From Aggregicoccus sp. 17bor-14 (lineage in GTDB: Bacteria; Myxococcota; Myxococcia; Myxococcales; Myxococcaceae): a DNA stretch of 64,000 nucleotides. Position numbers and translations under genes: made by a program. Below, piece after piece: positions 1,258 to 16,213 of this stretch. Every line of letters begins with the position of its first letter. Within the stretch, counting starts at the first letter, position 1. The notes under the pieces are model-generated. The model saw nothing but the letters and a program-made list of their open reading frames with translations, ran no database searches and was not told the origin of the DNA. The stretch is from assembly GCF_009659535.1 (NCBI RefSeq), contig NZ_VJZZ01000008.1:312001-376000 (forward strand). Reading direction: 5' to 3'.

Positions 1258-2085
1258 CTACCCCAGGCGCAGCAGCTCGCGCGCCTGCTGCGGCGTCGCG
1301 AGCGTGCGGCCCTTGGCCTGGCCGCGCTTCGCGGCCTCCGCGACGAGCTCGTAGCTGCCCTTCGCGAGCACGCCCTTGGACAGGTAGATGTTGTCCTCGA
1401 GCCCCACGCGCACGTGGCCGCCCTTTTCCGCGCCCAGCTCGGCCATCGGGAGCTGGAAGCGCCCCACGCCGGCCACCGTCCAGCTGCAGCCCTCGGGGAT
1501 GGAGGCGATCATGAAGTCCAGCGCCTCGGGGCGCGCCGCGAGCGCACCTGGCACGCCGAGCACGAAGTCGAAGTGGGCCGGCAGCTCCACGTAGCCCTCC
1601 TTCGCGAGGTAGCGCGCCTCGTCGATCATCCCGGCGTCGAAGCACTCGATCTCCGGCTTGAGCCCCAGCTTGCGGATGCGCGTGGCGATGTCGCGCACCA
1701 GCGGCCGGGGGTTCCAGAACACGTCCTCGCCGAAGTTGACGGTGCCGGTGGACAGCGTGGCCATGTCCGGGCGGTCGCTGCCGGTGAGCGTGAGCGGACC
1801 GCAGCGCTCGTCCACGCTCATCCCCACCGCGCCGCCCGTGGAGGTCTGCACGAGGATGTCCGAGCGCTTGCGGATCTCCCGGATGGCGGCGCGGAACAGC
1901 TCCGCGTCTTGGCTGGGCTTGCCGTCCGCGGTGCGCACGTGGATGTGCACCATGGCGGCGCCGGCCTCGCGGCACTTCGCCGCCTCGATGCCGATCTCCT
2001 CCGCCGTGATGGGCAGGTAGGGCGTCTGCTCGCGCGTCGTCTCCGCGCCCACCAGGGCCGCGGTGATCACCATGGGCTTGCTCAT
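1258..2085 (-). CDS. kce: 3-keto-5-aminohexanoate cleavage enzyme
   Basis: A 275-residue protein of the BKACE family (DUF849). Kce condenses 3-keto-5-aminohexanoate with acetyl-CoA and splits it into acetoacetate and 3-aminobutyryl-CoA. The zinc-binding residues are present: His47 and His49 in the HIHVR motif and Glu230 in VGLEDN, spaced as in characterised Kce. The start is the ATG at 2085 ([10 protein letters not shown]), which overlaps the stop of kal by one base (TGATG), indicating translational coupling. The family has many substrate variants, but the neighbours kal, kamE, kamD and kdd make the lysine-pathway assignment strong. Confidence 0.93.
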   Translation of the reverse strand: MSKPMVITAALVGAETTREQTPYLPITAEEIGIEAAKCREAGAAMVHIHVRTADGKPSQDAELFRAAIREIRKRSDILVQTSTGGAVGMSVDERCGPLTLTGSDRPDMATLSTGTVNFGEDVFWNPRPLVRDIATRIRKLGLKPEIECFDAGMIDEARYLAKEGYVELPAHFDFVLGVPGALAARPEALDFMIASIPEGCSWTVAGVGRFQLPMAELGAEKGGHVRVGLEDNIYLSKGVLAKGSYELVAEAAKRGQAKGRTLATPQQARELLRLG

Positions 2086-2480
2086 CACTTCGTCCCTCCG
2101 CGCTGCTTGTCCTTGGGCACCACGCAGGTGCCGGTGGCGCGGCACACCACCACCGGCTCGGGCAGCAGGTCCGCAGCGGAGGCGTTCACGTCCGGCCGCG
2201 GGACGATGACTTTACGTGCCTCGAACTTCATCTTGCGGCTGGTGGTGCCCACGTGGGTGATCTCCCCTACCGCCTCGATGAAGTCACCGCCGTACACCGG
2301 CGCGAGGAACTCCACCGAGTCGTAGGCACGAAAGAGCCCCTCGTCCCCGTCCTGCAGGATGCACAGCTCGGTCGCCACGTCGCCGAAGAGGCCGAGCATG
2401 CGCGCGCCGTCCACGAGGTTGCCCCCGTAGTGCGCGTCGTGGCTGCTCATGCGCAGGCGGATGATGGACTTGTGGCTCAT
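2085..2480 (-). CDS. kal: 3-aminobutyryl-CoA ammonia-lyase
   Basis: A 131-residue hotdog-fold protein, matching the length of known Kal enzymes. Kal removes ammonia from L-3-aminobutyryl-CoA to give crotonyl-CoA. Features seen are an N-terminal region with SSHDAHYGG and a central helix [16 protein letters not shown], both typical of the Kal branch. Its ATG overlaps the kamE stop by four bases (ATGA) and its stop overlaps the kce start, so kamE, kal and kce are very probably one transcript. The assignment rests on family resemblance plus the gene order. Confidence 0.9.
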
Positions 2481-3262
2481 GAGGGCTCCCCCTGGTAGTG
2501 CGCGTCCGCGCTCTCCTTGCCCATCTTCTTGAGCACGGCGTGCGTGACGTAGTTGGCCACGTCGCTGGGCTTGGTGCCGGGGCCGAAGCCCGCGTCGAAG
2601 CCCAGCTCCAGCGCGAGCTTGTGGTCCACGCGCGGGCCGCCCAGCAGCAGGATGGTCTTGCCGTGGATGCCCGCCGCCTTCGCAGCCTCGATGAACTGGC
2701 GGCTGTTGTCCTTGTGCACGTCGCGCTGGGTGACGACCTGGCTCACGAGGATGGCGTCCGCGTTGCGAGCCATCGCCTTCTGGATGAGCACCTCGTTGGG
2801 CACCTGGCTGCCGAGGTTGAACGCCTCGAAGCCCGGGTAGCGCTCGAGGCCGTAGTCGCCCGCGTAGCCCTTCATGTTGAGGATGGCGTCGATGCCCACG
2901 GTGTGGGTGTCCGTGCCCGTGCAGGCGCCGAATACGACGATGCGACGGCCGACCTTGTCGTGGATGAACTTGTTCAGGTCGTCGTAGCTCATCTTCTTCT
3001 GCACCACCTCCGGCACGTCGATCTCGGCGTAGTCGAGCGAGACGCCGGAGCGGGCGTAGACGATGAAGAAGGTGTAGCTGTCGGCGGCGCTCTCGGCGGC
3101 CGCCACCTTCACGTCCGTGAAGCCCATCTTGCGGGTGAAGACGGCGGCGGCCTCCTTCGCCTTCTCGGAGAGGGGCACGGGCAGCGTGAAGGAGAGCTGC
3201 ACCACGCCGTCGTCGCGGCGGTCGCCGTAGGGGCGGATGATCTGCTTGGTCGCTTTGGCCAT
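2477..3262 (-). CDS. kamE: Lysine 5,6-aminomutase, beta subunit (B12-binding)
   Basis: A 261-residue beta subunit of the adenosylcobalamin- and PLP-dependent aminomutase that moves the terminal amino group of beta-lysine (or D-lysine) from C6 to C5. The base-off cobalamin motif DxHxxG is present (Asp118, His120, Gly123 in GTDTHTVG), followed by SQV at 174-176 and the GG of LLGGPR at 208-209. Lys131 lies eleven residues after the cobalamin His, exactly where the PLP-binding lysine sits in the clostridial enzyme. It is separated from kamD by ten bases. Confidence 0.95.
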
Positions 3263-3272
3263 GGTGCGCGCT

Positions 3273-4820
3273 CTAGGACTCGAGGAGGTCGAGGAAGGGG
3301 TTGAAGTAGTCCGGCGCCTTCTCCACGACGCCCTCGAGGCCCTTGCCGCCGGTCTCCTCGCGCTTCACGTCGCCGAAGCGGCCCTTGCCGATGGCGGCCA
3401 CCATGCCCTCGTTGCGGCACTCCTCGAGCAGCTTCATCGCCTCGCCGAAGACGAAGCGCGCGCGGTTGGCGATCTTGCCGTCCTCGCGCACCGTGAACTC
3501 CTCGTCGATGCCGCGCGCCGCGGTGTGGATGTACTTGGCCGCCTTGAGCGCCACGTAGCGGTCCGCGAGCAGCGGGGTGTGCATGGCCTCGGTCATCATC
3601 CCCAGCAGCTGGATGCCCTGCCGCGTCCAGATGGCCACCAGGTCCGCCATCACGTCGTACGCGTGGCTGAAGAAGATGTCCGTCTCCTTGTGCTTGGTGG
3701 GCGGCATGTACTTGAGCGGCGCGTCCGGGAAGCAGCGGCGCACGAGCATGGCCTGCGAGAGCTCGAGCAGCAGCGTCTCCTCGCGGTACGGGTCGATCTC
3801 GTAGGAGTGCCCGATGCCCAGCTGCCAGTCCTTGAGCCCCGCGCGCTTGGCGAAGGTCTCGTTGATGAACTGGCTCGCGATGACGGTGTGGGCCGCGTCG
3901 TAGGCGTCCGCGGTGGTGATGTAGTTGTCCTCGCCGGTGTTGATGATGATGCCGGCGAGCGCGCAGATGCGGCGGCTGAAGTACTGGTCGATGAAGGTGC
4001 GGCGCATGTTGATGTCGCGGAACAGGATTCCGTACATCGCGTCGTTGAGCAGCATGTCCAGCCGCTCGTAGGCCGCGGCGAAGGCGATCTCCGCCATGCA
4101 CAGGCCCGAGGAGTAGTTGGTCAGCTGGATGTAGCGGCCCAGCTTGCGGCTCTCCTCGTCCAGGGCCTCGCGCATGATGCGGAAGTTCTCCTGGGTGGCG
4201 TAGGTGCCGCCGTATCCCTCGGTGGTGGCGCCGTGGGGCACGTAGTCCAGGAGGCTCTGCGCGGTGGAGCGGATGACGGCGATCACGTCCGCGCCGGCCT
4301 GCGCCGCGGCGCGCGCCTGGTCCACGTCGTCGTAGATGTTGCCGGTGGCCACGATGACGTACTTGTGGGGCGCCGGCGGCATGGGGAACTGCTTGCGCAG
4401 GGCGTCGCGCTGGGCGATGCGGCCCTTGAGGTCCTCCATCGCGGCGCGCGCCTCCGAGCGCACCTCGTCGCGCAGGTTCGCCTCCACCTCGGGCGAGAGG
4501 GGTCCCAGCTTGTCGTTGGGCAGCGCGGTGAGGCGCTCGACGGCCTCGAGCGGGCTCTTGGCTCCCATGTGCAGCGCGCGGCCGTACCAGTAGGCGGCGC
4601 CGCGGTTGAGCACCTTCGCCTCGTGGAGGCGATCGACCATCAGGTTGGCGAGCGGGACGCCGCGCGTCCCTGCCCCCGAGAGGCCGAAGAAGCGCAGGAC
4701 CGTGCGCTCGATGGAGACAGTGGTGTTCCGGCGGATGAGATCGAAGACCGGGTCGGTGATCTCCTCCGCGAGCTTGCGCGCATGGGCAATCTGCGCGTCC
4801 TCGATGAAGGGGCCAGGCAT
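3273..4820 (-). CDS. kamD: Lysine 5,6-aminomutase, alpha subunit
   Basis: A 515-residue TIM-barrel alpha subunit that partners KamE in the D-lysine/beta-lysine 5,6-aminomutase. The chosen start is the ATG at 4820 (MPGPFIEDAQ), preceded by a good ribosome-binding site (AGAGGGGG); an in-frame longer reading to 4868 adds only low-quality residues. Length agrees with the family (about 510-520). The sequence is recognisable along its whole length, including the N-terminal ARKLAEEITDPV and the central region around the PLP and substrate pocket. kamE follows after ten bases. Confidence 0.95.
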   Translation of the reverse strand: MPGPFIEDAQIAHARKLAEEITDPVFDLIRRNTTVSIERTVLRFFGLSGAGTRGVPLANLMVDRLHEAKVLNRGAAYWYGRALHMGAKSPLEAVERLTALPNDKLGPLSPEVEANLRDEVRSEARAAMEDLKGRIAQRDALRKQFPMPPAPHKYVIVATGNIYDDVDQARAAAQAGADVIAVIRSTAQSLLDYVPHGATTEGYGGTYATQENFRIMREALDEESRKLGRYIQLTNYSSGLCMAEIAFAAAYERLDMLLNDAMYGILFRDINMRRTFIDQYFSRRICALAGIIINTGEDNYITTADAYDAAHTVIASQFINETFAKRAGLKDWQLGIGHSYEIDPYREETLLLELSQAMLVRRCFPDAPLKYMPPTKHKETDIFFSHAYDVMADLVAIWTRQGIQLLGMMTEAMHTPLLADRYVALKAAKYIHTAARGIDEEFTVREDGKIANRARFVFGEAMKLLEECRNEGMVAAIGKGRFGDVKREETGGKGLEGVVEKAPDYFNPFLDLLES

Positions 4821-4888
4821 GGCCCCCTCTACCCTACTTGTGCGCCTTGGGGAACCCCCAGCCCGCACGGAGCGGTTGCCGCGCTGCG

Positions 4889-5920
4889 CTAGACGTAGCG
4901 CTGCTCGAAGAGCTGCCGCAGCGCGGGCTCGCGGCGCAGCAGCTCCAGGGTGAGGTCCGCGTGCCCCGGCACGTAGCCGTTGCCCACCAGCATGGTCACG
5001 TCCTTGCCCACCCCCTCGGCGCCCAGAGCCGCCGCCGTGAAGCTGGTGGCCATGGAGAAGAAGATGGCGGTGCCGCCGTCCTTCACGCTCAGCAGCGTGG
5101 CCATCTCGGTGTTGGCCACCGAGGCGCAGTTGATCACCAGATCACAGAGCGCGCCGCCAGTAGCCGCAGACACCGCCTGCATCACGTCCACGCCCTGGGT
5201 GGCGTCCACCTTGAGCGCCTGGTCGCACAGGCCGATGCCCTGCAGCGCAGCGAGCGCGTTCTGCGAGATATCCAGGGCGAGCAGCTTTCCCTTGCCTCCC
5301 AGCTGCGTGCGCGCCTGGGCGAGGCAGAGCGCCCCGCTCTTGCCCGCCCCGAGCACGGCCACGGTCATTCCCGGGCGCACGTGGCGCGCCACCAGCGCGG
5401 GCGCCCCGCACACGTCCAGGGCCGCGAGCGCCAGCGTGTCCGCCATGTCCGTGGGCAGCTTCGCGTAGAGGCCGCTCGCGAAGAGCAGCGCGTGGCCGCG
5501 GATGTCCAGGCGGTCGATGCCCGCGTGCACCGCCTTCACCTCCTCGATGACCAGGGGCGTGAGGGTGAGGCTGACCAGCGTGGCGATGCGGTCGCCGACC
5601 TTCAGGGTCTCGCGCGCGGGGTGCGCAGGGCCGATCTCCTTCACCCGCCCGATGAGCATGCCGCCCGAGCCGGTGACCGGATTCTGCATCTTGCCGCGCT
5701 CGCGGACGATCTCCTGGATGCGTCCGGCGATGCGTGCGGGGTCGCCGCCCACGTCGTCCTTGATCTGCTTGAAGGAGGCCGCGTCGATGTTGAGGCTCTC
5801 CACGTCGATGAGCAGCTCGGAGTCGCGGCACGGCAGCGAGGGGTCCAGCTTGCGCGCCCGCTGCGGCAGCACGCCCTTCTCCCCCACCACGCGAGACAGG
5901 CCGTATCGGTCGTTGGTCAT
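4889..5920 (-). CDS. kdd: L-erythro-3,5-diaminohexanoate dehydrogenase
   Basis: A 343-residue NAD(P)+-dependent enzyme that oxidatively deaminates 3,5-diaminohexanoate to 3-keto-5-aminohexanoate, the substrate of Kce. It has a medium-chain-dehydrogenase-like layout with a Rossmann motif VLGAGKSGAL (GAGKSG at 191-196) and an acidic residue in LALDIS near 217 that should bind the ribose. The ATG at 5920 is chosen because of the upstream AAGGCGGGG and the good N-terminal match; the reading frame continues upstream without conservation. It is the first gene of the lysine operon, 68 bases ahead of kamD. Confidence 0.93.
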   Translation of the reverse strand: MTNDRYGLSRVVGEKGVLPQRARKLDPSLPCRDSELLIDVESLNIDAASFKQIKDDVGGDPARIAGRIQEIVRERGKMQNPVTGSGGMLIGRVKEIGPAHPARETLKVGDRIATLVSLTLTPLVIEEVKAVHAGIDRLDIRGHALLFASGLYAKLPTDMADTLALAALDVCGAPALVARHVRPGMTVAVLGAGKSGALCLAQARTQLGGKGKLLALDISQNALAALQGIGLCDQALKVDATQGVDVMQAVSAATGGALCDLVINCASVANTEMATLLSVKDGGTAIFFSMATSFTAAALGAEGVGKDVTMLVGNGYVPGHADLTLELLRREPALRQLFEQRYV

Positions 5921-5969
5921 GGCCCCGCCTTCTACGTCCTTCCGGGCGCCGAGTGCTCGCAGAAACGCT

Positions 5970-5991
5970 GCCCCCGACGCAGCGCGGGGGC
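5970..5991. promoter_or_regulatory. Inverted repeat upstream of the lysine operon
   Basis: Perfect 7-base arms GCCCCCG/CGGGGGC around an 8-base loop, in the 124-base gap between the repeat-rich lipoprotein gene and kdd. It could terminate the upstream transcript or act as an operator or attenuator for the lysine operon. No run of T follows it on either strand, and I see no cobalamin-riboswitch B12 box (GCCACTG) in this gap. Confidence 0.4.
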
Positions 5992-6044
5992 GCCAGGCCC
6001 GTGGCCCAGCTCCCCCGCTCACTGCGTCAATCGTCCTGCCGGGT

Positions 6045-9000
6045 CTACTGCACCGTCATCACGCCCAGCTGCGTGGTCTCGAGCGGGAGGCTCCCGTTGG
6101 ACCCCGCGCCGTTGAGGTCGCAGTAGGTCCAGTTGAGCCCGCTGTCGAAGCTGAAGCGGTACGTGTAGCTGTACGCACCGATCGTCGCCGGAGCAGTGAA
6201 GCTCCCCTGGTACTCGTCGTTGTTGCCGACCTGGACGTTGTAGCTCGCGTCGTAGAAGCGCCAGGTGGTGACGAGGGTGGGGTTCGACGCCGAAGGCCCG
6301 TAGCCCAGCTGCGCCATGGTCCCGGCCGGTGCGCCCGGCGCCTCGGTCAGGCCCGCCTCGAACAGCTGGCCGTACACCACCGGCGTCGCCGCGCCGGGCG
6401 CCAAGGTGAAGGACCCCGGGAACTGCAGGTTGCAGTAGTCCGCCTGCAGCGGGTTCGCGCTGCCGTTGAGCGAGCCGGTGTACGTGAACGCGTTGCTCGC
6501 GCTGGCCGCTCCGCCGCCGCCCCGCAGCGTGTTGCTCACGCTGACGTCCACGCGGCCCACCGTCGCGTTCGCAGGCGCGGTGCAGGTGAGCTGCGTGGTC
6601 CCCGTGGCGGTGCACGTTGCACTGACCGTCCCGAACTTCACCGTCGCACCGGACGCAAGCCCGGTTCCCGTGATGACGACGTTCGTGGTGGTCGCGGCGC
6701 CGCTCGCGACCGTGTTGTTCGGCGTGACGGAGGTGATGTTGGTCGCGGCGGGCAGGATGTTGGCCTGGCCCGGGCTCGGGGTGGTGCAGACGTGGAAGTC
6801 GTTGCGGTTGTTGTCCGTGTCCGAGCTCAGCGCGTCGCGGCACAGCGCATAGCCTACGTTGTCGGTCGGCGTGATGGCGGTCTGGCCCTCGTACATGAGC
6901 AGGGCCAGGTTGTTGATCTTGAAGGTGGTCGCGCTGACGTCGAGGGCAGCCCCCGCCGGATCGTGGCCGACAGCATCCCAGACGGTGCCACTGGGCGCCG
7001 CGAGGATGATGGAGTCACCACCGCTGTTCTCCAGGTCCATGTCGCGCACCGTGACGTCACCGGCGCCGAGCCCCGGAACCAGGGAAGCGGTGAAGGAGCC
7101 CGAGGTGGTGCCGTTGACGCCGTCCGCGATGACGAGGACGCCGTCCGCCGGGATGCGCCAGCCGGCAGGCAGGGTGAGCTCGCCGGCGGGATCCGTCCCG
7201 TTGAGGTCCCCGGTGGCGCCCGCATTGCGCGCGCCCGCGCTGGTGCCCTTCCCTTCGACGTCCTCGACCTTCAGGCCGCCCACGGGTGCGCCGGCCGGGC
7301 CGACGAGCTCGAGGAAGGCCTTCCCGTCATCCGTGCTGGCGGGGTCGATGAATGCCTCGTTGATGACGGCCACGCTGCAGCTGCCGTTGGCCGCCCCCGC
7401 CGTGTTCGACACCCTCACATGCGAGCCGGGGGCGCCCGAGTAGAAGCTGGTGCACCAGTTGTCACCGGAGTCGTTGCCGGCGGCCGTGCGCGAGGCGGGG
7501 TCCAGCTGCGTCGAGACGCCGGCGAAGCCCGGGAAGGCCTGCGCCGCCATCTTCGCTTCCGGGTCCGTGATGAAGTTGCGGAAGTCCACGAGGTCCTCGA
7601 GGGCCGCACCGTTGGGCGAGTGCAGCGAGAGCACGTCCCCGCCGTCCGCGAGCGCGAAGGAGGTGCCGATGGCGCCGTACACGAAGCCCGCCCCGGCCGG
7701 GACGATGCCGCTCACGGGATTGGCGACGCCGTACAGGTAGCCCCCCGCGGGCAGCATCACGGGCGTTCCCGCGGTGCCGTTCACGTCGTTCAGCGCGCGC
7801 ACGTTGGCCAGCGCGTTCGCCCCGTTCTGGAAGACGAAGTCGTGGATGTCCACAGGCGCCGCGGTCGTGTTGTGCAGCTCGATGAACTCGCTGCCCAGGG
7901 CGCTGAACTCGGTGATCACCACCTCGCCGACCTGGTCGCCGGGGCCGACAGCCACGCAGCCGCTGGCGCGGCACACCTGCTGCGGACCACACGCGAAGTC
8001 GTTGGGCGTGTGGGTCACGTCGCCGGAGGACGGATCGCACGCGTCGGTGGTGCACGCGACGCTGTCGTCCACGTTCACGGCCTCGTGGTGCACGCCGGTG
8101 ACGGGGTCGCAGGAGTCGGCCGTGCAGGCATTCCCATCATCCACCGCCACGGCCTGGTGGCTCACGCCGGTGACGGGGTCACAGGCATCCACGGTGCAGA
8201 CGTCGTGGTCGTCCACGTCGATGGGCGTGTGGCTCGTGCCCAGCACCGGATCGCACGCGTCCGCGGTGCAGGCATTGTGGTCGTCCACGTCCGTGGGGTC
8301 GTGGTGCACGCCGGTGGAGGGGTCGCAGCTGTCCGTGGTGCAGGCGTTCGAGTCATCGACGGCGACCTCGGCGTGGTGCACGCCGGTGTCCGGGTCGCAG
8401 CTGTCCGCGGTGCAGGCGTTCTTGTCGTCCGGATCGACGGGCAGATGGAAGGGCCCCTCCTCCGGAAGACAGCCGTCCATGGTGCAGGCATTGCCATCGT
8501 CGGTCGCGATCGCGTCGTGCTTCACGCCGAACACCGGGTCGCACGAGTCGGTGGTGCAGGCATTGCCGTCGTCCGGGTTGGACGGCTCGTGGTGCACTCC
8601 GAGCGCCGGGTCGCAGCTGTCCACGGTGCAGACGTTGCCGTCATCCACCGCGACGGCCGTGTGCTTCACGCCCGTCGCCGGGTCGCAGGAGTCCGACGTA
8701 CAGACGTTGGAGTCATCCGGGTCGATCGCCACGTGGGCCACGCCCATCGCAGGGTCGCAGGAGTCCGTGGTGCAGGCGTTGCCGTCGTCCACGCTGACAG
8801 CGGCGTGCTTCACACCGGTCGCGGGGTCGCAAGAGTCCGCCGTGCAGGCATTGGCGTCATCCACGGCCACCGCCTCGTGCTTCACGCCGGCGATCGGATC
8901 GCAGGTGTCGGCCGTGCAGGCGTTGCCGTCATCGACGCTGACAGCTGCGTGCGTCACGCCCGTCGCCGGGTTGCAGCTGTCCGCGGTGCAGACGTTCCCG

Positions 9001-9746
9001 TCGTCCACGGCGACCGCGGTGTGGTGGACTCCCGTCGCGGGGTCACAGCTGTCCGCGGTGCAGGCGTTCTGGTCGTCCACGCTGACGGCGACGTGGCTCA
9101 CGCCCATGGAAGGGTCGCAGGCGTCGGCGGTGCAGGCATTGCCATCGTCCACGGCGACCGCCGTGTGGCTCACGCCGGTCGCAGGGTCGCAGGCGTCCGC
9201 CGTACAGGCATTGCCGTCATCGACGCTGACCGCGGTGTGGCTCACGCCCGTCGCGGGATCGCACGCATCGGCGGTGCAGGGGTTGCCGTCATCGACGGGG
9301 ACCGACGCGTGGCTCACCCCGGTGTTGGGGTCGCACGCGTCCGCAGTGCAGGCGTTCCCGTCGTCCATGGCCAGGGTCGTGTGGCTCACGCCGGTCGCCG
9401 GGTCGCACGCGTCCGCGGTGCAGGCATTGCCGTCATCCACGCTGACGGCCACGTGCTTCACGCCGACCGCCGGGTCGCAGCTGTCCGCGGTGCAGACGTT
9501 GCCGTCATCCACGCTGATGGCCGCGTGCTTCACGCCCGTCGCCGGGTCGCAGGAGTCCGCGGTGCAGGCATTGCCGTCATCCGTCTGCGCGGCGTGCGCC
9601 TCGCAGACCTGGTTCACGCAGGCGTCCACCGTGCACGCGTTGCCGTCCTCGCAGTCCGCATCCACCTGGCACTCGCGCTTGTCGCACGCAGAGAGCGCCA
9701 GCAGCGCGCCCAGCAGGAGCGCCGTGTTCCATCGAGCCATCACCAT
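6045..9746 (-). CDS. Giant lipoprotein with 24-residue Cys repeats, lamin-tail and IPT/TIG-like domains
   Basis: About 1233 residues, predicted outer-surface lipoprotein. Starts at 9746 (MVMARW) or 9740 are both possible. The signal ends in a lipobox LSAC (Cys21). Residues about 56-580 are 21 full and one degenerate copies of a 24-residue unit, typically DDGNACTADSCDPATGV, each with two Cys and several Asp. After a short Cys-rich linker come two lamin-tail-like domains (first with VVITEFSALGSEFIELHN, second near AVINEAFIDPAS), then an IPT/TIG-like Ig domain (VTPNNTVASG to AFTYTG), and a C-terminal beta-rich domain of about 130 residues. The make-up suggests a Ca2+- or disulfide-stabilised stalk presenting binding domains. 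No catalytic motif is visible; function unknown. Confidence 0.88.
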   Translation of the reverse strand: MVMARWNTALLLGALLALSACDKRECQVDADCEDGNACTVDACVNQVCEAHAAQTDDGNACTADSCDPATGVKHAAISVDDGNVCTADSCDPAVGVKHVAVSVDDGNACTADACDPATGVSHTTLAMDDGNACTADACDPNTGVSHASVPVDDGNPCTADACDPATGVSHTAVSVDDGNACTADACDPATGVSHTAVAVDDGNACTADACDPSMGVSHVAVSVDDQNACTADSCDPATGVHHTAVAVDDGNVCTADSCNPATGVTHAAVSVDDGNACTADTCDPIAGVKHEAVAVDDANACTADSCDPATGVKHAAVSVDDGNACTTDSCDPAMGVAHVAIDPDDSNVCTSDSCDPATGVKHTAVAVDDGNVCTVDSCDPALGVHHEPSNPDDGNACTTDSCDPVFGVKHDAIATDDGNACTMDGCLPEEGPFHLPVDPDDKNACTADSCDPDTGVHHAEVAVDDSNACTTDSCDPSTGVHHDPTDVDDHNACTADACDPVLGTSHTPIDVDDHDVCTVDACDPVTGVSHQAVAVDDGNACTADSCDPVTGVHHEAVNVDDSVACTTDACDPSSGDVTHTPNDFACGPQQVCRASGCVAVGPGDQVGEVVITEFSALGSEFIELHNTTAAPVDIHDFVFQNGANALANVRALNDVNGTAGTPVMLPAGGYLYGVANPVSGIVPAGAGFVYGAIGTSFALADGGDVLSLHSPNGAALEDLVDFRNFITDPEAKMAAQAFPGFAGVSTQLDPASRTAAGNDSGDNWCTSFYSGAPGSHVRVSNTAGAANGSCSVAVINEAFIDPASTDDGKAFLELVGPAGAPVGGLKVEDVEGKGTSAGARNAGATGDLNGTDPAGELTLPAGWRIPADGVLVIADGVNGTTSGSFTASLVPGLGAGDVTVRDMDLENSGGDSIILAAPSGTVWDAVGHDPAGAALDVSATTFKINNLALLMYEGQTAITPTDNVGYALCRDALSSDTDNNRNDFHVCTTPSPGQANILPAATNITSVTPNNTVASGAATTTNVVITGTGLASGATVKFGTVSATCTATGTTQLTCTAPANATVGRVDVSVSNTLRGGGGAASASNAFTYTGSLNGSANPLQADYCNLQFPGSFTLAPGAATPVVYGQLFEAGLTEAPGAPAGTMAQLGYGPSASNPTLVTTWRFYDASYNVQVGNNDEYQGSFTAPATIGAYSYTYRFSFDSGLNWTYCDLNGAGSNGSLPLETTQLGVMTVQ
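7998..9581 (-). repeat. Tandem array of 22 coding repeats, 72-base unit
   Basis: Twenty-one consecutive 72-base units (9581 down to 8070) plus a degenerate 22nd unit (to 7998), all in frame inside the giant lipoprotein gene. The DDxNxCTxDxCxPxxG core is nearly invariant, while the last seven residues of each unit vary. No unit is shorter or longer than 24 codons until the last one. Confidence 0.93.
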
Positions 9747-9904
9747 GAGCTTGGAGCCGCGCGGTCGCAGGCCGTGGGGAGACGGTCCGAGGGGAGTCCC
9801 AGGCGCGGGCGGGGCCAGACTGTAGGTGATGAGACACTTCCGGTGCATCTCAGGGACAAACCCCGGGCAGCACACATCCACACACCCGCAGCAAATCCGG
9901 CGAC

Positions 9905-10921
9905 TTACCGTGCGTCGTCGCGCTGCAGGCGGGGCACGAGATACGCGAGCGAGCGCTCGAAGCGGTAGCTCACGCCCGAGTGGCCGTCGTCGAACTCCTC
10001 GTGCTGCACGTCGATGCCGGCGGCCTTCAGCGCGCCGGCGATCATCCGCGCGCCCCAGCGCAGGTTGTACTCGTCACGGCTGCCGCAATCGATGAAGACG
10101 CTGGAGAGGCGCCGGAAGCTGTCCAGGTGCTCGGGCACGAAGCGCACCGGGTCGTGCGCGAGCCAGCGGTTCCACACCTCGGGCCGCATCCGCGCCGTCT
10201 GCAGCTCGAAGGGCAATTCCACATCGAGCGGCTCGCCGCGCTTGGGCGAGTACGCGGCCGCCATCGCGACCGCGTTCACCGTGGGGAAGTCATCGCCGCG
10301 CAGCTTCGTGGAGCGGGCGCGCTGCTGGAACTCCGCGAACCAGGGCTCGAGGCCGCCGGCCTTGAGCAGGGCGCCGGCCGCCTTGGGCAGGTCCGGCAGG
10401 TAGCAGTACTCGAAGTAGGCATCCCCGGACTGGCAGCTGAGGTGCCCGAAGAGCTCGGGGTGGTGGCGCCCCATCACCAGCACGCCGTAGCCGCCGGAGC
10501 TGTGGCCGAGCACCGCGCGCGAGGAGGCGCGCGGCAGCGTGCGGTAGCTGCGGTCCACGAAGCCCACCACGTCGCGCGCGAGGTAGTCGCGGTAGCGCCC
10601 GGTGGCCTCGCTGTTCACCCACTGGCTTCCGCCCAGCGCGGTCCAGCCGTCCGGGAACACGCCGATGACGGGGGAGATGGCGCCGCTCGCCACCAGCGCG
10701 TCGAGCCGCTCGGGCACGTTGAGGCCGAAGCCGGCCGCGTTCGTCCAGCCACGCCCACCGCTGCCGAAGGCGTGGAGGAAGTAGGCCACGGGATAGCGCC
10801 CCTGGCCCTGCGCGTAGCCGGGGGGCAGGTACACGGTGAGCTCGCGGCGCGCGGGGTCTCCGAGCGCGTTGCCCTCGAGCGCGGGGGACTGAAACGTCTG
10901 TCTCTCCAGCGTTCCCTGCAT
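9905..10921 (-). CDS. Esterase, alpha/beta hydrolase of the esterase D/Fes-like type
   Basis: A 338-residue putative esterase without signal peptide. The nucleophile elbow is GHSSG with Ser141; the block YLPPGY followed by PVAYFLHAFGSGG around residues 31-56 contributes the oxyanion region; the C-terminal acid and base are likely in DCGSRDEYN and FDDGHSGVSYR. This pattern matches the esterase D/S-formylglutathione hydrolase/enterochelin esterase group. The ATG at 10921 is preferred because the frame upstream overlaps the UDG gene and is not conserved-looking. It lies 23 bases after the UDG gene on the same strand. The substrate is unknown. Confidence 0.85.
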   Translation of the reverse strand: MQGTLERQTFQSPALEGNALGDPARRELTVYLPPGYAQGQGRYPVAYFLHAFGSGGRGWTNAAGFGLNVPERLDALVASGAISPVIGVFPDGWTALGGSQWVNSEATGRYRDYLARDVVGFVDRSYRTLPRASSRAVLGHSSGGYGVLVMGRHHPELFGHLSCQSGDAYFEYCYLPDLPKAAGALLKAGGLEPWFAEFQQRARSTKLRGDDFPTVNAVAMAAAYSPKRGEPLDVELPFELQTARMRPEVWNRWLAHDPVRFVPEHLDSFRRLSSVFIDCGSRDEYNLRWGARMIAGALKAAGIDVQHEEFDDGHSGVSYRFERSLAYLVPRLQRDDAR

Positions 10922-13243: not shown

Positions 13244-16213
13244 TCAAGGGTTGAGGCTGACCTCACCCTGGGAGGGCACGTCGGCGCCGCGCACGCGGGG
13301 GCCCTCCGGCGCCGCCACGTGGAAGGGGGCGTACACGAGCGTGTAGTGGCCGGGCGCGAGCCCGCGCAGCGTCACCTGCTCCCCGCGGGGCTGGTAGACA
13401 AGCTGCCCCAGCGGGACCTGGAGCAGCTCGCGCGGCGGGTTGCCGGTCATGGCCACCTGCCCCGGCACGGCCCACAGCGCCCAGCCCCGCTGCGGCTGCA
13501 GGCGCACGGTGAGCGACGCCGTGCCCGGCGCGGGCCCGAGGTCCACGTGCTGCTCGCCGCCGCGCACCTGCACGAGCAGGAGCGGCGCACCGGCGAAGTC
13601 GGCGCCCGGCTCCAGCGTGAAGCGGTAGGGACCGGGCGGGAGCTCGACGCTGTACCGGCCATCCGGGCCCGTCACCACCTGCACCGGCTCGCCGCGCTCG
13701 GTGTCCAGCCCCTCCAGCTCCACGCCCGCGGCGGGCCGGCCGTCCGGCAGGTACGCGGTGCCCCACAGGCGCGTGGCGGGCTGCAGCGTGAGGGTGAGCG
13801 CGGGCGGCACCTCGCCGCGCGCGATGCGCTGAGAGGCGGTGCGGCGGCCCTTGCGCGCGGTGAGGGTGTACTGCGGCACGAAGGGCGGGCGCGGCAGGGT
13901 GAAGCGGCCGTCCGCGCCGGTGAGCGCGGAGTCGTCGCACACGTCGCAGGAGACCACCGCCTCGCTCACGGGGGCGCCCGAGGCGTCCTGCACCGTGCCT
14001 GAAATCGTGGGGGCCCGCTTCAGGACGAGGTCTCCGAGGTCCTCCTGCGCGGGGCGCTCGAGCAGGAGCGGCTCGAAGCCGGGCGCCTCGATGGAGACCA
14101 CCACCTGGTCGCCTGCGCGCGGCAGCGCCACCTCGAAGCGGCCGTCCGCGCTGGACACCTCCTGCTCGTCGAGCTGGAAGCGCTTCACCGGCGTGCCGTC
14201 GTCCGCGAGCACGCGGCCGCGGAAGAGGTCGCGCCGCTTCAGCACGAGCCGCACCGGCTCGCCGTCCGCGCTGCCCTCGACGCGCTCGGTGAGATCGTAG
14301 CCCTCGCGGCGCGCCTCGAGCCGGTAGCGCACGCCGGCGCGAAGCGGGCGCAGCGCGAAGTGGCCCGCCGCGTCGCTCGTCGTGGCCGCCACCGCGCGCG
14401 GCAGCACGCCCACCTGCGCGCCGGCGACCGGCTGGCCGCGCTCGTCCACCACCGCGCCCGAGAGGCTCGCGCCGCGCGGGAGCTCCACGGAGAGCCGCGC
14501 CGTCTGCCCCTCCTCCACGCGCACCTGCTGGCGCTCGGAGGGGAGGTGCTCGCGCTGGGTGGCGACGAGCCAGTAGCTGCCCGGGGGCAGTCCGCGCATG
14601 GCCACGACGCCGTCCGGCCCCGAGGCGCGGTCGCTGTGGAACACGTCCTCCTTGTCCCGCCAGAGCATCAGCTCCGCGCCCTCCAGCCGCTCGCCGCCGC
14701 CCGTCACCGTCACCTCCACGGCGGCGCGCGGCTCGAGCGAGAGCTCCACGCCCTGCGCCGGGGCCTGCGCCTGCACCGAGCCCCCGCCCCACTCCGAGTG
14801 GTGCGCGTGCAGCGTGTAGAGGCCCGCGGAGGGCACGGCGAAGTGGAAGCGGCCCGCGGCGTCCGAGAGCGTGGTGTCCCCCGTGGGCTGCAGCAGCACC
14901 GAGACGCCCGGCGCGGGGCGGCCGTACACGTCCAGCACGCGGCCCGCGAGCGAGGTGGCGCGCGCGAGCTGCAGCTCGAGCGGCGTGTCACCGGGCGCGA
15001 CGCGCGCGGGCAGCTCCCCGTCCGCGAAGCCCTCGGCGCTGCCCTCGAGCAGGTAGTCGCCCGGGGCCAGCGGCCCGAAGGTGACGAGCGCGCCCCCTTC
15101 CGCGCGCTCGCTGCGCACCGGCTCCCCGGTGCGCAGGCGCAGCTGCAGCCGGGCCGAGGGCACCGGCTCGCCGGCCTCGTCCACCACCGTGACGAGCAGC
15201 CGCCCTCCGGGCTCCAGCTCCAGCGTCACCTGCGTGCGCGCCTGGAGGAGCTCGAGCGTGCGCGGCGCGCTGCCGAGGCTGCCCTCGGAGGCCGCGACGG
15301 TGACTCGCCCGGGCGAGAGCCCCTCCAGGCGCGCGAGCCCGCGCACGGTGCGCACCGCGCGCTGCAGGTGGTCCGCGCTGAGCTGCACCTCGGCGTCCAC
15401 GGGCTTGCCGCCGCGCACCACGCGCACCTCCAGCGTGCGCTCGGGCACGAGCACCAGGTGCGCGCCCTCCCCGCCCGCCTCGAGCGAGGGCGCCACCGCG
15501 GGCAGGAAGCCGGGCGCGCGGGCGAGGACGTAGAAGGGCCCCTCCCCCAGCCCCTCGAGCGCGAAGCGCCCGTCCGCGCCCGCCTCGGCGCTCACCCCCA
15601 CCGGGGCGCGGCGCGACAGCGCGTGCAGCCGGGCGCCGGGCACGGGGCGGCCGGCGTCGTCCACCACCTCGCCGCGCAAGGTGCGCTCGGCCGGCAGGTA
15701 CAGCTCCACGGGCTCGCCGGGGGCGGCGCGCTCGTGCGAGGCGACGCCGCGGCCCGGCGCGCGCGCCCACACCGTGAAGGAGACGCCGGCGAGGTGCTCG
15801 AAGCGGAACGCGCCCCCCGCGTCCGTGCGCACCCGGGCGCGCGGCGCGAGCAGGCCCTCCTCGCGCGAGAGCAGCCCGGCCACGTGGCGCGCGCTCTCGT
15901 GCGCCTCGCAGGAGAGCAGCGGCTCACCGCACACCTCGCAGCGCTCGCTCGCGAGCGTCTCCTCGGCGCTCGCGGCAAGGAAGACGTCGGCGCCGGCGAG
16001 CGGCTGGCCGGCGGCGTCGCGCACGTGGCCGCTGAGCGTGAGGCCGCCCGCGTCCTCGCGCTGCACCGCCACGGGCAGGAAGGTGCGCGGGGCAGGTCCC
16101 GGCGCTGCGGCCGGGGCCGCTGCGGCCGCGGAGGCGGCAGCGCGCGGCCACACGAGCGCGCCGCCCGCGAGGAGCAGGAGCAGCGCAGCGCTGACGAGGA
16201 GCCACTTCTGCAT
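13244..16213 (-). CDS. Large exported protein of repeated carboxypeptidase-regulatory-like domains
   Basis: A 989-residue protein with an N-terminal hydrophobic segment (residues 4-20) that anchors it or serves as an uncleaved signal, then an Ala/Pro linker. The rest is about ten beta-sandwich units of the carboxypeptidase regulatory-like type, recognised by repeated patterns such as GxVxDxxGxPxxGAxV and DGRFxLxxLxxG. A Cys/His cluster (Cys92, Cys95, Cys102, His105, His110) in the first unit and another CDVC further on could bind metal or form disulfides. No peptidase residues are present, so it is a structural or binding protein of the cell envelope. Myxobacteria carry many such proteins, mostly of unknown role. 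Confidence 0.85.
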   Translation of the reverse strand: MQKWLLVSAALLLLLAGGALVWPRAAASAAAAAPAAAPGPAPRTFLPVAVQREDAGGLTLSGHVRDAAGQPLAGADVFLAASAEETLASERCEVCGEPLLSCEAHESARHVAGLLSREEGLLAPRARVRTDAGGAFRFEHLAGVSFTVWARAPGRGVASHERAAPGEPVELYLPAERTLRGEVVDDAGRPVPGARLHALSRRAPVGVSAEAGADGRFALEGLGEGPFYVLARAPGFLPAVAPSLEAGGEGAHLVLVPERTLEVRVVRGGKPVDAEVQLSADHLQRAVRTVRGLARLEGLSPGRVTVAASEGSLGSAPRTLELLQARTQVTLELEPGGRLLVTVVDEAGEPVPSARLQLRLRTGEPVRSERAEGGALVTFGPLAPGDYLLEGSAEGFADGELPARVAPGDTPLELQLARATSLAGRVLDVYGRPAPGVSVLLQPTGDTTLSDAAGRFHFAVPSAGLYTLHAHHSEWGGGSVQAQAPAQGVELSLEPRAAVEVTVTGGGERLEGAELMLWRDKEDVFHSDRASGPDGVVAMRGLPPGSYWLVATQREHLPSERQQVRVEEGQTARLSVELPRGASLSGAVVDERGQPVAGAQVGVLPRAVAATTSDAAGHFALRPLRAGVRYRLEARREGYDLTERVEGSADGEPVRLVLKRRDLFRGRVLADDGTPVKRFQLDEQEVSSADGRFEVALPRAGDQVVVSIEAPGFEPLLLERPAQEDLGDLVLKRAPTISGTVQDASGAPVSEAVVSCDVCDDSALTGADGRFTLPRPPFVPQYTLTARKGRRTASQRIARGEVPPALTLTLQPATRLWGTAYLPDGRPAAGVELEGLDTERGEPVQVVTGPDGRYSVELPPGPYRFTLEPGADFAGAPLLLVQVRGGEQHVDLGPAPGTASLTVRLQPQRGWALWAVPGQVAMTGNPPRELLQVPLGQLVYQPRGEQVTLRGLAPGHYTLVYAPFHVAAPEGPRVRGADVPSQGEVSLNP

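Follow-up and report, generated by a model that had tools for sequence, protein, structure and literature searches.

The repeat carried by the protein described here belongs to a known family, but its form is unusual, simplified, and very regular. It is encoded in the window, the whole stretch of 64,000 nucleotides of Aggregicoccus sp. 17bor-14 DNA that was analyzed. One four-cysteine cap unit and 22 two-cysteine units of 24 residues stand between a lipoprotein start and a multidomain head. Elsewhere the outer cysteines of the repeat are kept or lost together, and the head is conserved on stalks of other kinds. We consider it likely that the array is a disulfide-laddered rod, serving as a passive spacer that displays the head for adhesion or ligand binding.

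The stalk gene lies on the minus strand, running from an ATG at 9746 to a stop at 6045 (1,233 amino acids), and the N terminus of the protein reads MVMARWNTALLLGALLALSAC. Its codon-position GC of 0.65/0.54/0.92 identifies this frame as the coding one, as opposed to an antisense open reading frame at 5502-9968 (1,488 amino acids), which was rejected by the same measure as a GC-rich shadow of the array. A signal peptide and a lipobox cysteine were both found by inspection, as in bacterial lipoproteins. A tblastn search with five units for a phage or plasmid origin gave no match in phage and plasmid collections. From the N terminus onward, the features are as follows (window coordinates):

9687..9746, minus: lipoprotein signal peptide, residues 1-20, MVMARWNTALLLGALLALSA (sequence, by inspection)
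9684-9686, minus: Cys21 of the lipobox LSAC, residues 18-21 (sequence, by inspection)
9654..9686, minus: mature N-terminal flank CDKRECQVDAD, with the lipidated Cys21 and one more cysteine, Cys26 (sequence)
9582..9653, minus: cap unit CEDGNACTVDACVNQVCEAHAAQT, 24 amino acids, with all four cysteines of an ordinary CTDC unit (sequence; Pfam)
7998..9581, minus: 22 tandem CTDC units of 24 amino acids and two cysteines each, modeled as β-hairpins (sequence, TRF, Pfam, AlphaFold2)
7935..7997, minus: cysteine neck FACGPQQVCRASGCVAVGPGD, three cysteines, common to four relatives with Ig-like stalks (sequence comparison)
7602..7934, minus: lamin tail domain (LTD), residues 605-715 (Pfam PF00932)
6960..7394, minus: probably a second lamin-tail-like domain, residues about 785-929 (matches lamin A/C by structure, Z about 10)
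6480..6737, minus: IPT/TIG domain, residues 1004-1089 (Pfam PF01833; structure)
6048..6449, minus: C-terminal β-sandwich, residues 1100-1233, like the GlgE N-terminal domain (model, structure comparison)

Two neighboring regions of the window are worth recording. Adjoining the stalk gene, positions 1258-5950 hold lysine-fermentation-type genes, namely, those for a beta-keto acid cleavage enzyme, a thioesterase, lysine 5,6-aminomutase subunits, and 3,5-diaminohexanoate dehydrogenase. Positions 13244-16213, upstream of the CoaBC gene, encode a 989-amino-acid protein with seven carboxypeptidase-regulatory-like domains, perhaps another surface rod.

A regular two-cysteine form of the CTDC repeat

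Unit spacing is exactly 24 amino acids throughout all 22 units, and Tandem Repeats Finder (TRF) recovers the array independently (period 72, 21.6 copies, 71% matches). The motif DDx[ND]xCTxDxCxP occurs 21 times in the protein and never in 2,000 shuffles. An earlier, sequence-only reading of this DNA had described 22 units of exactly 24 codons at these coordinates, which is confirmed for the two-cysteine units. That reading nevertheless missed the four-cysteine cap unit at 9653-9582, which brings the total to 23, and Pfam likewise counts 23 CTDC stretches. Its supposedly invariant DDxNxCTxDxCxPxxG core holds at most positions, with D1, D2, C6, T7, D9, C11, P13, and G16 each present in 22/22 units, but N4 is found in only 20/22; D12, too, is found in 20/22. 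Similarly, the last seven residues, which had been called variable, are not all so, as evidenced by V17 (19/22), H19 (21/22), and V24 (16/22). The genome contains no other array of this kind.

The repeat had been presented without a family name. By its profile match, it is not new and belongs to the known Pfam family PF00526, Dicty_CTDC (E 7.9e-158; 512 bits against a curated cutoff of 27). This membership holds despite the two-cysteine units because the Pfam profile does not require four cysteines. PF00526 repeats are present in 86 of the 96 genomes examined from the window's GTDB family, Myxococcaceae, and in 0 of 14 control genomes. At locus L146 (G052:C112), a CTDC variant has ten regular units, each 33 residues long and bearing an extra CC motif. 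L053 (G092:C5) encodes a protein of 1,185 amino acids with 155 cysteines, whose CTDC-type units alternate and whose end is Gly-rich and MYXO-CTERM-like; in one interior unit of L053, Tyr replaces C6.

Growth of the array by duplication plus selection had also been proposed. Strong purifying selection does act on the core codons (dN/dS 0.04); at the variable positions, the dN/dS of 1.36 lies close to saturation, and we do not take it as positive selection. Duplication has left no sign of recent expansion. Unit similarity hardly depends on distance, with neighbors no more alike than distant units, and 4-fold sites differ between units at 0.40 (random, 0.54). The array is thus not a recent expansion, and recent unit duplication was rejected for want of a distance effect.

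Cysteine co-loss, predicted fold, and probable disulfide pairing

A typical myxobacterial unit has four cysteines: one before DD, then C6, C11, and one after G16. In the window array, the first and last of these are replaced, mostly by Val/Val, so that the four-cysteine trait of most myxobacterial members is absent from the 22 units and kept only in the cap unit. Among 161 distinct units outside the window, both outer cysteines are present in 130 and neither in 29; the other 2 are unclear, one being a terminal unit and one probably frameshifted. Fisher's test for their co-occurrence gives a P of 6e-30, but we place no weight on this value because it takes no account of shared descent. The two-cysteine type also occurs in genomes G106, G112, G130, G134, G136, G148, and G088, spanning several genera; across the phylum, 6 of 195 genomes have the exact V..V pattern, and a reversed control gave no hits. 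Because the outer cysteines are kept or lost together, they probably form a disulfide within the unit. The alternating arrays of G106 and G136 point the same way: there, four-cysteine units flank two-cysteine units, which is most simply explained if the outer pair forms its bond inside a single unit.

AlphaFold2 predicts every unit to be a hairpin of strands 7-12 and 16-21. A model of six units has no disordered segment and reaches a mean pLDDT of 95.6 with a pTM of 0.61, a confidence that may be flattered by an alignment consisting mostly of shifted copies of one array. The sequence-only reading had proposed a rod, either Ca2+-bound or disulfide locked, and had named structure prediction as a check; the prediction supports the rod. 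As for the disulfide lock, it survives by inference, with the bonds probably placed between units rather than within them. In the model, C6 sits at the start of a strand and C11 within the same strand, five residues apart, an arrangement that makes a bond inside the unit unlikely; C6 and C11 probably bond to neighboring units.

Could the two cysteines nevertheless pair inside each unit, C6 to C11, leaving the rod held by hairpin stacking only? That there are two cysteines per unit, both invariant, would suit such pairing. We judge it quite unlikely, as both residues lie five residues apart on one modeled strand, and cysteine bookkeeping tells against it as well. Stalk and neck together have 52 nonlipid cysteines (flank, 1; cap unit, 4; the 22 units, 44; neck, 3). 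All 52 can pair if the bonds run between units, whereas bonds within units would strand one cysteine at each end, namely, Cys26 and one neck cysteine. Moreover, end units elsewhere keep a single inner cysteine. First units that follow a Cys-free domain (G106/G107 family) keep C6 and lack C11, the first units of L060, L062, and L107 have Trp at C11, and the last units of L103 and L155 keep C11 and lack C6. These array ends, about four independent cases, favor bonds from C6 of one unit to C11 of the next, C6(k)-C11(k+1), whereas the precedent of the Entamoeba lectin, discussed below, favors the reverse direction.

The calcium-bound alternative holds that DDxN together with D9 and D12 binds Ca2+ and stiffens the stalk in the manner of thrombospondin type 3 (TSP3) repeats. 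The conservation of these aspartates (D1, D2, and D9 in 22/22 units and D12 in 20/22) is in keeping with this, but the AlphaFold2 model is confident without ions, the units contain no DxDxDG motif, and Pfam shows no match to calcium-binding families (TSP3, EF-hand) at E values up to 1. The proposal finds no support here, and we regard it as highly improbable. The co-loss of outer cysteines yields a disulfide map, open to direct test, of a repeat used in slime mold stalk and matrix proteins.

A head shared among different stalks

Lamin-tail-like and IPT/TIG-like domains had been read after the stalk, and Pfam confirms both. The LTD (PF00932) scores an E value of 3e-9 and 37.6 bits against a curated cutoff of 34.3, rising to 41 bits with the head alone, and the TIG domain (PF01833) scores an E value of 5e-8 and 33.3 bits against a cutoff of 20.9, with a Z of 10.7 to the EBF3 TIG domain. 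Within the head, Pfam recognizes two LTD stretches, and the head model is weak at the second one. That model is weak overall (pLDDT 55.9), with its last domain good; this β-sandwich (residues 1100-1233) has no Pfam match.

Over its last 631 residues, the protein is matched at about 47 to 56% identity by nine loci (L042-L050) in eight genomes of two related genera (g7 and g8). These relatives resemble the window protein in their lipoprotein signal, LTD, TIG domain, and C-terminal β-sandwich, and several have the cysteine neck. They differ in the stalk, which is made of Big_1, Invasin_D3, and fn3 domains (two examples scanned) and measures about 500 to 1,360 amino acids; none of the nine loci has a CTDC array. 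Nor is there a common gene neighborhood, as no gene flanking the window gene matches the loci around these relatives. A paralog in the same genome, L175:4002-9665 (G000:C7:336001-341664), is a lipoprotein with an Ig-like, non-CTDC stalk, the cysteine neck, two lamin-tail domains, and the same β-sandwich (41% identity). Because the head is conserved on Big_1/fn3 stalks of variable length and in the paralog, the stalk type is exchangeable, which suggests that the array works as an exchangeable spacer. One bacterial head module, in other words, rides on stalks of unrelated repeat types.

A similar stalk is seen in L155 of G088, another genus of the family. This small CTDC lipoprotein shares the lipid cysteine, one flank cysteine, a four-cysteine cap, and then two-cysteine units of the hydrophobic type, but its units total five and its C-terminal domain is unrelated. 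Separately, L176:4098-9062 (G000:C5) encodes a lipoprotein with another Cys-rich stalk (CGDGxxxxGExCDDGN repeats), followed by an apparent amidohydrolase, TSP3-like repeats, and a lamin-tail domain.

Probable surface display and comparison with known systems

The mature protein starts with CDKRECQ, which has Asp at +2 and neither Lys at +2 nor Ala at +7. In Myxococcus xanthus lipoproteins, Lys at +2 marks the inner membrane and Ala at +7 marks the matrix, while in Escherichia coli, Asp at +2 is an inner-membrane signal (PMC3222651). The M. xanthus rules therefore assign the protein to the outer membrane, and the E. coli rules assign it to the inner membrane. From the former, we infer an outer-membrane lipoprotein exposed at the cell surface. 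A lipoprotein of the inner membrane or periplasm, whose rod spans the periplasm so that the head meets the wall or outer membrane, would agree with the E. coli meaning of Asp at +2 (PMC3222651). It seems very unlikely to us, given that the M. xanthus signal is Lys at +2, that Asp at +2 is missing from most head relatives, and that extracellular roles fit heads with TIG and lamin-tail domains.

A further alternative is a structural extracellular-matrix protein, whose array would assemble matrix or cross-link it, with the head as just one of several attachment points. Dictyostelium CTDC proteins are indeed matrix proteins (PMC4931340), and the Cys-rich CREMP of the eggshell membrane has closely similar cysteine spacing (PMC3068167). 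The lipid anchor, the lack of the M. xanthus matrix signal (Ala at +7), the relatives that keep the head without the array, and the capacity of all stalk cysteines to pair inside one chain make this role unlikely.

Under the surface display that we favor, the cap unit and 22 two-cysteine units, each a β-hairpin, would form one long rod. In an ordinary CTDC unit, the outer cysteine pair would close the hairpin and the inner pair would bond to neighboring units; with the outer pair mostly Val/Val, only a ladder of disulfides between units would remain, running from Cys26 to the three-cysteine neck. Such a rod would be a passive, exchangeable spacer holding the lamin-tail, TIG, and β-sandwich domains off the cell, where the displayed head may serve adhesion or ligand binding.

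By family, the array is akin to the Dictyostelium proteins, in which the CTDC repeat marks matrix proteins, e.g., ecmA and ecmB, and also psiA, psiF, and pdiA (PMC4931340, PMC9117722). The likeness, drawn via the Pfam profile, consists of membership in PF00526 and tandem, 24-residue, extracellular Cys-rich repeats; here, however, the repeats belong to a bacterial lipoprotein with an LTD/TIG head. Modules of chicken CREMP and Dictyostelium SP75 share the C-X4-C-X5-C spacing of CTDC (PMC3068167), but they have four cysteines each and come from eukaryotic matrix or coat proteins, likened by cysteine spacing alone. PDB sequence searches with the protein, the array profile, and a four-cysteine array found no relatives, and a published contact-based model of the CTDC family had no good template (PMC8078820). 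The array offers a regular, compact test case for a repeat without a sequence-matched solved structure.

In a Foldseek search, the sole group with low E values was the Entamoeba Gal/GalNAc lectin heavy chain, residues 415-587 (9gjb, 9gjf; E 3e-4). This region is described as pseudodomains of 20 to 35 residues with four cysteines, of which the first and last form a bond inside the module while the second and third link it to its neighbors (PMC12948311). Like the lectin's cysteine-rich arc, the array would be a chain of small β modules with disulfides between modules. The lectin modules are nevertheless three stranded, the two structures superpose poorly overall (Z 2.6; rmsd 26), and there is no sequence match to the array, so the fold match is a lead, not proof. 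One might go further and read the co-loss as the disulfide plan of the whole CTDC family, with outer cysteines closing hairpins and inner cysteines stapling neighbors. On this view, a single fold would be common to the stalks of bacteria, the stalk-matrix proteins of Dictyostelium, and the lectin arm of Entamoeba, with the window gene as a natural variant in which hydrophobic pairs replace the closing disulfides and the staples are kept. We put this forward tentatively, as a conjecture that is less likely than not.

Finally, a parallel in plan is offered by the surface receptor TraA of Myxococcus, which combines PA14, a Cys-rich stalk (TIGR04201), and MYXO-CTERM. Its Cys-rich hairpins in M. 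xanthus have been read as a presentation stalk (PMC3325183, PMC12045341). TraA differs in its repeat family, its anchor, and its head, and the TIGR04201 Myxo_Cys_RPT profile does not match the array at E values up to 10. In both proteins, a stalk of Cys-rich β-hairpins (predicted here) would present a domain, and our reading of the array as a display stalk fits the published one of TraA, though the repeat family differs.
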